64,000 nt of DNA from Dehalogenimonas sp. 4OHTPN (GTDB lineage Bacteria > Chloroflexota > Dehalococcoidia > Dehalococcoidales > Dehalococcoidaceae), in assembly GCF_040448695.1 (NCBI RefSeq), contig NZ_CP159307.1:992001-1056000 (forward strand), written 5' to 3'. The notes under the pieces were generated by a model. It had not been told where the DNA came from. It searched no databases and worked only from the letters and a program-made list of their open reading frames with translations. A program made the translations under genes and the position numbers. Positions 27,048-30,594 of the stretch are shown in pieces. The number at the start of each line of letters is the position of its first letter. Positions within the stretch are counted from its first letter, which is position 1.

Positions 27048-28145
27048 TTGGATTCAGCTTTCAAATTTGGCAGATTCCTAGATATCGATTTTCGTATCCA
27101 TTTCAGCTGGTTTCTCATCTTCATACTGATGGCTGTCTTCCTGGCCCGGGATGTATTTCCAGGCGCCGTTCGCGGCGAGAGCACGCTTTCTTACTGGCTT
27201 ATGGGAACCGGCACCGCTTTCCTTTTTTTCGTGTCGGTTCTGGGTCATGAGTTAGGACACACTCTGGCCGCCAGGTCAGCCGGAATTCCGATCGGCGGCA
27301 TAACCCTGTTTTTGTTTGGTGGAGCGGCACAGATGAATCGAGAGCCGGCCTCAGCGAGTGCCGAACTGAAAATGGCTCTGTCCGGTCCCGGGGTCAGTCT
27401 GCTAATGGCAGTATTATTCTGGGCGGCTTATCAAATATTCCTTGGTTCCCTGAATACCATTGCCGCTATGTCCTTATGGCTTTCACAGATAAATTTAATC
27501 GTCGCTGGGTTCAACCTCCTGCCCGGATTTCCCCTTGACGGCGGACGGGTGCTTCGCGCCTTATGGTGGCGCTTAACCGGCGACAACCTTCGGGCAACCA
27601 GGGTAGCTGTAGCCTGTGGGCGCATCACCGGTCTGGCGATAGTCGCCGCCGGTATCTTCGTCCTCGTCCAAAACCAGGACTGGCTGGCTGGGGTCTGGCT
27701 TATCCTGATAGGTGTCTATCTTGAATACTCCGCACGTCTCAGCCTGCGGCAGTATTATCTCCAGCAATGGATGAAGGGGCGGAAAGTCTCGGAAGTCATG
27801 GAAACCCGCTGCCGGGAAATCCCGCCGGAGACTAAGGTGAGTGAATTACTTATTAATCCTGGTGCTGAACGCTGCCTGTTGGTCAACCTCGGTGACCGGC
27901 AGGGAGTAGTGTTCACGCCAACCCTTTCAGCTCATTCAGGCACAGCCGGCTTGGACCGCATCGCCCTGCCGGTCGACGGCGCCCTTCAGATCTCACCCGG
28001 TGATGACCTCCTGGTGCTGGCCCAGCAGATGAATGAGACCGGGCGTGATTATGCGGTGGTTAAACAGGACGGCCGGACGGTCGGCTTCGTCTTTCTGGAC
28101 GCACTGATCGACCTGGTAAACAGCCCAAGAGGCGGAAACACCTGA
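27048..28145 (+). CDS. site-2 protease family metalloprotease (S2P/M50)
   Basis: This 365-residue membrane protease has the zinc motif HELGH near residue 68 and the second motif NLLPGFPLDGGRVLRALWW near residues 160-178. Hydrophobic helices surround both. The C-terminal part from about 250 (KVSEVMETRCREIPPETKV) is CBS-like but degenerate. S2P enzymes cut regulatory proteins inside the membrane. TTG 27048 is the only plausible start; AAGG lies seven bases upstream. The gene closely resembles the one at 29082, and the two flank a GreA-like gene. Confidence 0.9.
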   Translation: MDSAFKFGRFLDIDFRIHFSWFLIFILMAVFLARDVFPGAVRGESTLSYWLMGTGTAFLFFVSVLGHELGHTLAARSAGIPIGGITLFLFGGAAQMNREPASASAELKMALSGPGVSLLMAVLFWAAYQIFLGSLNTIAAMSLWLSQINLIVAGFNLLPGFPLDGGRVLRALWWRLTGDNLRATRVAVACGRITGLAIVAAGIFVLVQNQDWLAGVWLILIGVYLEYSARLSLRQYYLQQWMKGRKVSEVMETRCREIPPETKVSELLINPGAERCLLVNLGDRQGVVFTPTLSAHSGTAGLDRIALPVDGALQISPGDDLLVLAQQMNETGRDYAVVKQDGRTVGFVFLDALIDLVNSPRGGNT

Positions 28146-28183
28146 GCAACACTCTTTGCCTCATTCACATTGGCAGTATATAC

Positions 28184-28217
28184 TTGGATTTGGCCATTGA
28201 GCAAAGCATACTTTGCT
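28184..28217 (+). promoter_or_regulatory. promoter with palindromic operator-like site
   Basis: TTGGAT (28184-28189) and CATACT (28207-28212) are 17 bp apart. A perfect inverted repeat AGCAAAG-CATA-CTTTGCT (28200-28217) is centred on the -10 element, as expected for a repressor site. It lies before the GreA-like gene. Confidence 0.5.
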
Positions 28218-28248
28218 TTCTGAAATAACCAGCGCTCGAGAGGAAAGA

Positions 28249-29055
28249 ATGACAGAAACCCAAAATGATCGTCCGGCTGATCTGACAGACGCCGCGGTAG
28301 CCTACCTCGGCTCCTTGTCTTCCGGAAAACGTGAAGCCGTAACGCCGGCGGTGATGAACTTTGTCAGATGGTACGGGGCTCACCAGAGTATTGATAAAAT
28401 TGCCCCGCCGAAACTTGGCGAATACGCGGAAAGCCAGCCCTCCGGTGAAGATGGCGCCGCCAAGATTAAGGCTGTACGAGAAATGCTGGCTTTTGCTGCC
28501 CGTCAAAATTGGATTTCATCGGAAATGTCCGGTCACCTGAAAGTGAGGAAAGTTGTTGCCAGAGTCAGGTCGTCCAACTCGCGCCCGGCTGTTGAGAAAC
28601 TGGTTCTGACAACTGACAAACAGGCAGAGATGACGGCGGAGTTGGCCGGGTTAAAAGAGCGCCGGGTACATGTCATTGATGATATTAAACGCGCGGCGGC
28701 GGACAAGGATCTGAAAGAGAATGCGCCCTACCATGCCGCCCGGGAAGAGAAAGCCCGCCTGGACGGCAAGATCAAAGAATTGGAGACTCTCCTCAAGCAT
28801 GCCGTGGTAGGCGAGCAGGAGTGTGCTGCTGGAACTATGGCTGACCTTGGCCGTAAGGTCACTCTGAAGGAAACAGTGTCTGGTATTCAAAGAACCTATT
28901 TACTGGTGACCCCTCGTGAAGTAAATCCCAAGACCGGCCGGATCTCTCCGGTATCGCCCATCGGCAAAGCTGTTATGGGGCGCTCAGCGGGTGAAATCGT
29001 CGAGGTTGTCGCACCGGCCTGTACAGTGAAATATCTGATAGAGTGCATTGAATAA
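28249..29055 (+). CDS. GreA-family protein with integrase-like N-terminal domain
   Basis: ATG 28249, with GAGAGGAAAG upstream, gives 268 residues. The C-terminal half (about 120-268) is GreA/GreB-like. It has a coiled coil with DKDLKENAPYHAAREEK, keeping the acidic residues (D and E of DLKEN) that GreA inserts into RNA polymerase to trigger transcript cleavage, and a C-terminal FKBP-like part with SPIGKAVMGRSAGEIVEV. The first about 100 residues are unlike GreA. They resemble the core-binding (SAM-like) N-terminal domain of tyrosine recombinases in pattern (FVRWYGAHQSIDKIAP, then KAVREMLAFAARQNWI). It lies between two site-2 proteases. The combined function is unknown. Confidence 0.78.
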   Translation: MTETQNDRPADLTDAAVAYLGSLSSGKREAVTPAVMNFVRWYGAHQSIDKIAPPKLGEYAESQPSGEDGAAKIKAVREMLAFAARQNWISSEMSGHLKVRKVVARVRSSNSRPAVEKLVLTTDKQAEMTAELAGLKERRVHVIDDIKRAAADKDLKENAPYHAAREEKARLDGKIKELETLLKHAVVGEQECAAGTMADLGRKVTLKETVSGIQRTYLLVTPREVNPKTGRISPVSPIGKAVMGRSAGEIVEVVAPACTVKYLIECIE

Positions 29056-29081: not shown

Positions 29082-30194
29082 ATGAGGTCATCATTCAAGA
29101 TCGGGCGCATTCTGGGTATAGAGATTGGTATACATGTTTCGTGGCTCCTGATATTCGCCTTTTTGACCTGGTCGCTTGCCGCCAGCTACTTCCCTTCCAT
29201 TCTCCCCGAAGAAAGCTCCGCGACTTACTGGCTGCTCGGGGCTGCCTCCAGCCTCTCGCTATTTGCCTCGGTCCTGGCTCACGAGCTGGGTCACTCGGTA
29301 GTCGCTCGGCGTAACGGCATACCGGTAAAAGATATCACGCTGTTTATTTTCGGCGGCGCGTCCAATATCGGTAAGGAAGCCGATACTCCCGGCGCCGAGT
29401 TCCGCATGGCGGTGACGGGGCCTCTGATCAGTTTCGCTTTGGCGGCCATATTCTACGTTGTCTATTCCGCCGGCGGGCCAGTCGAGACCGCCTTGAGCGC
29501 TGTCACCCTCTATTTGGCCCAGATAAATATGATTTTAGGCATTTTCAATTTACTTCCCGGATTTCCTCTTGACGGCGGCCGGGTATTCCGGTCGCTAGTC
29601 TGGAAGATAACCGGCAACGTCAATAAGGCGACTCGAATTGCGGCCACAACCGGTCAGGTAATCGCTTATTTGTTTATCTTCGGCGGCATCGCGTTAGCCT
29701 TCAATGTCGGGATCAGCGGTTTGTGGCTGGCTTTAATCGGCTGGTTCTTAGCCTCGGCAGCCTCGGCAAGCTATCAACAGTCTTTGCTCTCGGAGGTCCT
29801 TAAAGGGATTAAAGTGAGTCAGATCGCCAGGCTGGATTTACACACCATCTCTCCGACATTGACGGTTGAGTCAGCTTTGAATGAGATGCTGGAGAAGCGC
29901 CAGCGCGCCTTTCCGGTGGTTGAAGGCAGCCGCATGATCGGGCTTCTTAGTATGACGGATATTAAACGCTCACCAAGGCACACCTGGTCGTCGGAGACTG
30001 TCAGTAGTATCCTTACCCCGATGAATGAGGTAAAATCCGTTTCCCCTGATGACGACCTGGCGGCGGCTCTCGAGCTTATGCAAGGCGGAGGATTCAACCA
30101 GTTACCGGTTCTGGAGGGCGGCGCGCTGCGCGGGATGCTTTCCCGCGCTGACCTGCTGAGCTATATTCAGATCAAGCAGGAACTCGGCCGTTAG
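29082..30194 (+). CDS. site-2 protease family metalloprotease with CBS pair
   Basis: The 370-residue intramembrane protease is paralogous to the gene at 27048. The zinc site is HELGH near residue 68, and NLLPGFPLDGGRVFRS lies near residue 160. The C-terminal region holds two CBS domains (about 245-305 and 308-365), with better preserved sequences than in the first copy (GLLSMTDIKRSPRHTW and RGMLSRADLLSY). CBS pairs often bind adenine nucleotides and could regulate proteolysis. GGAGGCGG lies just before ATG 29082. The start is 27 bp behind the GreA-like gene, so the two are probably cotranscribed. Confidence 0.92.
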   Translation: MRSSFKIGRILGIEIGIHVSWLLIFAFLTWSLAASYFPSILPEESSATYWLLGAASSLSLFASVLAHELGHSVVARRNGIPVKDITLFIFGGASNIGKEADTPGAEFRMAVTGPLISFALAAIFYVVYSAGGPVETALSAVTLYLAQINMILGIFNLLPGFPLDGGRVFRSLVWKITGNVNKATRIAATTGQVIAYLFIFGGIALAFNVGISGLWLALIGWFLASAASASYQQSLLSEVLKGIKVSQIARLDLHTISPTLTVESALNEMLEKRQRAFPVVEGSRMIGLLSMTDIKRSPRHTWSSETVSSILTPMNEVKSVSPDDDLAAALELMQGGGFNQLPVLEGGALRGMLSRADLLSYIQIKQELGR

Positions 30195-30258: not shown

Positions 30259-30594
30259 GTGGAAAAGACCTCTACCGGTCTTCAAGAGAACGTCGCCGGT
30301 TTGCTGTGTTATCTTGGGACTTGGATAACGGGCATAATTTTCCTGATTATCGAGCCCAAAAACAGATTTGTGAGATTTCACGCTTTTCAATCTATAGTCG
30401 TTTTCGGATTTATTCAAATCCTTGGGTTGATACTGAGTGGACCGTTTGCGCTGTTTAATTTACTTTTTGCCTGGCTTATATGGGTTGCCGGAATAATTCT
30501 CTGGATCGTGCTCATGGGAAAAGCTTATCAGGGGCAGCGCTACAAACTGCCGGTGGCCGGGGATATCGCCGAGAGCCTGCTCGGCAAAGGTTAG
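30259..30594 (+). CDS. DUF4870/Tic20-like membrane protein
   Basis: This 111-residue integral membrane protein has three to four hydrophobic segments. The pattern GLLCYLGTWITGIIFLIIEP near residues 14-33, followed by RFHAFQSIVVF, matches DUF4870 (Tic20-like) proteins, whose function is not established. The start is GTG 30259, fixed by AAGGAGG about eight bases upstream. It has its own promoter and ends before a minus-strand operon. Confidence 0.75.
   Translation: MEKTSTGLQENVAGLLCYLGTWITGIIFLIIEPKNRFVRFHAFQSIVVFGFIQILGLILSGPFALFNLLFAWLIWVAGIILWIVLMGKAYQGQRYKLPVAGDIAESLLGKG

Follow-up and report, generated by a model that had tools for sequence, protein, structure and literature searches.

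A tyrosine-recombinase core-binding domain fused to GreA in Dehalogenimonas and its relatives

Gre factors are near-universal and are usually seen as two-domain proteins acting via the secondary channel alone. A coiled coil, an acidic D/E tip and an FKBP-like C-terminal domain make up E. coli GreA (1grj), and all three recur, at approximately 30% identity in the model alignment, in the protein described here, which adds an N-terminal domain of some 105 residues and a linker. A GreA with a large N-terminal extension is also found in the protein models PRK06330 ("transcript cleavage factor/unknown domain fusion protein") and PRK14720. The extensions in these models are longer, at 500–700 residues, and both models match the present protein only via its GreA part, save for a PRK06330 match beginning at residue 71; we know of no recombinase descent for either extension. 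A second point of comparison is provided by the core-binding (CB) domain of tyrosine recombinases, which forms one half of a DNA clamp and, taken alone, tends to bind DNA with low affinity. Finally, Gre-family paralogues acting beside a cleaving GreA have been described, namely Gfh1 of Thermus and Rv3788, and the tip of Gfh1 is likewise acidic (PMC4598747).

The gene studied here, denoted CB-GreA, is located in a 64,000-nucleotide window of Dehalogenimonas sp. 4OHTPN (contig NZ_CP159307.1, positions 992,001–1,056,000), and all coordinates refer to that window. It extends on the forward strand from an ATG at 28249 to a stop codon ending at 29055, exactly as placed in the first-pass annotation, and encodes 268 amino acids. 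A ribosome-binding-site-like GAGAGG (28238..28243, forward strand) was read directly from the sequence upstream of the start. The features of the protein, all on the forward strand, are a core-binding (SAM-like) domain at residues 1–105 (28249..28563), supported by the AlphaFold model, fold comparison, profile searches and purifying selection; a flexible basic linker at residues 106–118 (28564..28602); the GreA coiled-coil domain at residues 119–187 (28603..28809; PF03449, E 6e-17); and the GreA C-terminal RNAP-binding domain at residues 199–267 (28843..29049; PF01272, E 9e-17). Throughout the 1.75-Mb genome, which is a single contig, CB-GreA is the sole gene with a GreA_GreB_N domain, and one DksA/TraR-type zinc-finger protein is encoded in the same genome. 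The 38 reductive dehalogenase family matches found there mark the organism as an organohalide-respiring member of the Dehalococcoidia.

The GreA half is readily recognized at the level of single domains, with 62 bits for the GreA_GreB_N coiled coil (Pfam cut-off 24.5) and 61.3 bits for the GreA_GreB C-terminal domain (cut-off 26.9), and the top phmmer match among solved structures is E. coli GreA. The scores against the NCBIfam GreA models fall under their cut-offs (TIGR01462, 119 vs 139; NF001263, 117 vs 145). Judged by its sequence, CB-GreA is a divergent GreA, assigned by the Pfam domains and by its residues and not as an NCBIfam equivalog. The acidic tip D154-L-K-E157-N158 (28708..28722, forward strand) reads DKDLKENAPYHAA, as compared to GDLKENAEYHAA in E. 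coli GreA; D154 and E157 sit within KDLKENAPYHAA, and these two residues, together with N158, are invariant across 53 homologues. With both Pfam domains present and the acidic pair invariant, the proposal of the first-pass annotation that the GreA half is intact holds, and the protein is probably cleavage-competent. The invariant tip argues for cleavage, although the anti-cleavage factor Gfh1 is acidic-tipped too.

The N-terminal domain was not recognized by family searches, as residues 1–119, and the first ~105 residues searched alone, matched no Pfam or NCBIfam family. An AlphaFold model built from an alignment of 31 full-length homologues (mean pLDDT 78.5) reached a pLDDT of 85–90 across most of the N-domain, where the five main helices span residues 12–22, 25–42, 53–62, 67–85 and 91–96. 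Residues 101–118 of the linker region are floppy in the model (pLDDT <50) and the pTM of the full-length protein is 0.36, so that the relative placing of the two halves is not fixed by the model. The best structural match of the N-domain is 3nrw, with Z 13.5 and an rmsd of 2.1 Å over 94 of 104 residues; lambda Int (Z 11.7), XerD (Z 10.2) and the Tn1549 integrase also match residues 6–105 (Foldseek, VIA-align) and, among the matches listed, every one that spans the N-domain alone is an integrase or Xer CB domain.

Because helical folds can give middling Z values by chance, evidence was also sought in the sequence. An hhalign comparison of the N-domain profile with the Xer CB domains of the same Chloroflexota genomes gave a probability of 94.6%, against at most 2.5% for 40 column-shuffled decoys and 0.1% each for the reversed profile and the helical GreA coiled coil. 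When the N-domain profile was run over 400 Chloroflexota genomes, the strong matches were the same fusion, followed by a weak tail with E-values from 3e-8 to 4e-5; of 20 such weak matches fetched, 17 proved to be tyrosine recombinases or recombinase-type CB proteins and three were further GreA fusions. No meaningful match came from an hmmsearch with this profile over the sequences in the PDB. Single fusion sequences compared with Phage_int_SAM_4 gave weak matches in only 4 of 31 cases, all below the cut-off (best E 0.008), and divergent fusion members showed no significant match to Pfam SAM families. The homology is thus visible to structure, to profile–profile comparison and to genome-wide profile matching, whereas single-profile Pfam and NCBIfam searches are blind to it.

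In combination, these results establish that the N-domain of CB-GreA is homologous to the CB domains of tyrosine recombinases, as the earlier annotation had suspected for residues 1–105. It shares with the CB domains of lambda Int, XerD and 3nrw the fold, the helix order, the basic helix-D positions and the profile homology. Conversely, CB-GreA has neither the catalytic domain nor the recombinase residues, its CB part being fused to GreA instead. No recombinase catalytic family (R-H-R-Y residues) was matched in Pfam or NCBIfam, and the identity of CB-GreA as a whole tyrosine recombinase is excluded, the remainder of the protein being GreA. The Asn-Pro pair that follows the last helix and is conserved in recombinases occurs, among the fusions, only in a divergent subfamily (L150, L162, L179). 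Separately, three proteins of ~365–400 residues from Chloroflexota family f132 (L149, L155, L160) combine a recombinase-type CB domain with a middle part that looks degenerate and a helix-turn-helix region of the MerR type, apparently another re-use of the CB domain.

The N-domain is under strong purifying selection: dN/dS over residues 1–104 is 0.035 between the window and genome G083 and 0.06 between G189 and G197, in both close pairs as low as in the GreA part. Across 53 sequences Lys or Arg occupies position 77 in 100%, position 98 in 96%, position 101 in 91%, position 72 in 85%, and positions 28 and 100 in 83% each, and the median net charge of the domain is +4. Two of these positions, 72 and 77 on helix D, carry a basic residue in all 26 aligned Xer proteins as well. 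The basic positions would fit a contact between the CB domain and the DNA backbone. The strongest conservation in the N-domain further includes F38, W41, G43 and Y59.

The occurrence of the fusion was surveyed at two levels. With matches of any coverage counted, a search with full-length CB-GreA was positive in 187 of the 197 class genomes, and most of the matches listed run from residue ~10 to the protein end. For the wider phylum, a profile of 53 fusions was run over the 400 Chloroflexota genomes; matches starting at model position 28 or earlier were taken as fused and those starting from ~86 or later as plain GreA, with a clear score drop between the two, and genomes were counted by hand from the match listing. 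Of the 400 genomes, 96 have a fused GreA: 52 of the 54 sampled from the class, and 44 of the remaining 346 Chloroflexota. The exceptions within the class are G053, which gave no match, and G178, which has a 138-aa remnant; in G416 the profile matched the GreA part alone, yet reading of the DNA showed a fusion. Outside the phylum, 101 genomes from the phylum of a Bacillota MAG yielded no fused GreA, and neither did the viral contigs searched.

When the GreA part was used to build a tree, the fusions came out as one moderately supported group (SH-aLRT 91). The hypothesis of a single origin is not rejected, and on these sequences the fusion has one apparent origin in Chloroflexota. Within this group, the protein of G081 (L210) begins with a short leader rich in Lys in place of the CB domain, and this looks like a secondary, natural domain loss. 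The domain is consequently not strictly required, as the same GreA subtype exists without it; the leader would fit a non-specific nucleic-acid role, in what is a single case.

Genomes outside the family of the window often contain a second, plain Gre besides the fusion, and here the two copies differ at the tip. In each of the 12 class genomes read that carry a plain Gre together with the fusion (L187–L196, L201, L203), the plain copy has lost both tip acids, exemplified by GGTENNAEYEDAK and LASAQNNAEYEEAK. Three plain copies from other classes show Glu replaced by Asp, and one copy, in G385, has a canonical tip. Plain GreAs of fusion-free genomes have, with few exceptions, GDLxEN-type tips. 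The acid-less copies group together in the GreA-part tree (SH-aLRT 98), apart from the fused cluster. As the plain copy lost the tip acids and the fusion kept them, the fusion, and not the plain copy, would be the catalytic Gre of the lineage. The acid-less plain Gre may be an inhibitor of the Gfh1 kind or an antipause factor, with the difference that Gfh1 retains acidic tip residues and the plain Dehalococcoidia copy has lost the two catalytic ones. In the family to which the window belongs, the plain copy seems to have been lost altogether.

On balance we favour a reading of CB-GreA as a housekeeping cleavage factor with a domesticated CB domain on a basic linker, most likely holding DNA, the fusion having arisen once. 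A general role is suggested by the fact that this genome has no other GreA and that the fusion is the usual Gre in its class; the proposed DNA holding by the CB domain is based on the retained recombinase fold and the conserved basic positions. By analogy with E. coli GreA, the coiled coil would enter the secondary channel of RNA polymerase, where the D154/E157 tip, to judge from its conservation, would help to cleave backtracked RNA. The tether would leave the CB domain near the mouth of the secondary channel, in a position to hold the downstream duplex beside the polymerase with no strong sequence preference, and such a hold could keep the factor on elongation complexes or help it to find stalled ones. 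The corresponding evolutionary course is put forward with more reserve, as one that could well be right: the CB domain would have been captured once by a Chloroflexota Gre, giving a DNA-anchored factor that replaced the ordinary GreA, while the plain sister lost its catalytic acids and then vanished in the organohalide-respiring family.

The main rival to a DNA anchor is a CB domain that has lost its DNA binding and would now make protein contacts, either as a module docking on RNA polymerase, the ribosome, NusG or some regulator, or as a regulatory lid over the access of the coiled coil to the channel. Domesticated DNA-binding domains are commonly re-used as protein–protein or regulatory modules, and the conservation of F38, W41, G43 and Y59 could mean an exposed patch as well as a core. 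The conserved basic residues and the net positive charge, found in nearly all members, speak against it, as does the fact that the basic helix-D positions are common to recombinases, and we regard a protein-contact role as rather unlikely. A regulatory use would also be in line with the reported K17 acetylation of the Dehalococcoides GreA (cbdbA743) in stationary phase, a site not placed with certainty (PMC7918482). Counted from the long start, residue 17 proved to be an Asn or a Ser in three Dehalococcoides-like genomes, and counting from an internal Met at ~116 puts a Lys at position 17 of the Dehalococcoides-like GreA. Hence K17 acetylation, which at first looked like a modification of the CB domain, was not used as evidence, the numbering fitting the internal start better than the long one.

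Guidance of the factor to chosen loci, as suggested in the first-pass annotation, would require the CB domain to read a specific DNA sequence. The fold is indeed that of a site-specific DNA-binding domain. Recombinase site recognition, however, normally needs the catalytic domain that CB-GreA lacks, the helix faces that would read bases show no strong conservation, the conserved positions residing in core and general basic residues, and a locus-specific role for a sole GreA that is near-universal in the class would leave general backtracking rescue unserved. Targeting of this kind is accordingly improbable.

The gene has a promoter of its own, TTGCCT-17-TATACT (28156–28184), which agrees with the consensus at 9 of 12 positions in a consensus scan and in which TTGCCT (28156..28161, forward strand) is the -35-like hexamer. 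By eye, a TATACT layout with 17–18 bp spacing is present upstream of the gene in five further members of the genus, G083, G189, G197, G135 and G068. The perfect palindrome noted earlier on this promoter does exist: it is the 10-bp AGTATATACT at 28175..28184, whose last six bases (28179–28184) are the -10 hexamer TATACT. An operator role, on the other hand, was rejected, because the palindrome shares bases with the -10 box and is not kept at its flanks: the nearest relative has GGTATATACT at this position, with different outer bases. Since the palindrome contains the -10 box, no repressor is needed to explain it, and chance alone would give a 64-kb sequence approximately 60 perfect palindromes of 10 bp (64000/4^5). 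An inverted repeat, AGCAAAG-CATA-CTTTGCT, is located at 28200–28217; the window contains 56 comparable repeats.

CB-GreA is flanked by two S2P-like M50 proteases on the forward strand, one upstream (27048..28145) and one downstream (29082..30194), the latter with two CBS domains. Both are Peptidase_M50 proteins with HELGH and are ~37% identical to each other, confirming the flanking paralogous pair recorded in the earlier reading; we treat them as neighbours only. A DUF4870 membrane protein (30259–30594) lies 3' of the block, and the order of ThiC, S2P, GreA, S2P, DUF4870 and further genes is syntenic across the genus. The S2P-GreA-S2P order is present in six of eight genus genomes, an unrelated ORF replacing the upstream S2P in the other two. 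The downstream S2P adjoins GreA in all 11 family genomes examined, including three Dehalococcoides-like genomes in which the upstream S2P is ~2.3 kb off. Among nine further relatives, an S2P is near GreA in one and an S2P pair in none. As the order is limited to one genus and the upstream S2P is missing in two of its members, the pair around GreA is a recent, local arrangement. A genus-level operon joining the two proteases and CB-GreA in one membrane-to-transcription response of the kind envisaged in the first-pass annotation, in favour of which the adjacency recurring in the genus and family speaks, is very improbable, given that the entire ThiC-to-GAPDH block is conserved in the genus as shared synteny, that the pair is absent outside the family and that CB-GreA has its own conserved promoter. 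Elsewhere in the order, the DUF4870 gene directly adjoins CB-GreA at three loci (L134, L138, L139). An FAD-dependent oxidoreductase, putatively geranylgeranyl-reductase-like, is encoded directly upstream of CB-GreA at most order loci and in Dehalococcoides (L131, L134–L139, L002).

The GreA parts and the CB domain are known kinds. A search limited to open-access literature found no description of the CB-GreA fusion, of its class-wide fixation or of the acid-less partner, and within that literature the combination, its fixation and the partner appear new. CB-GreA appears to be a remodelled housekeeping protein and not a peculiarity of one locus. An entire bacterial class, to which the main dechlorinating genera belong, seems to depend on a Gre factor extended by a domain of recombinase descent, and in relatives with two Gre copies a split is seen between a catalytic and an acid-less copy. 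If the proposed role is true, backtracking rescue in this branch relies on a factor in contact with DNA as well as with the active site, and one may ask for what reason these lineages require a cleavage factor with a possible hold on DNA.
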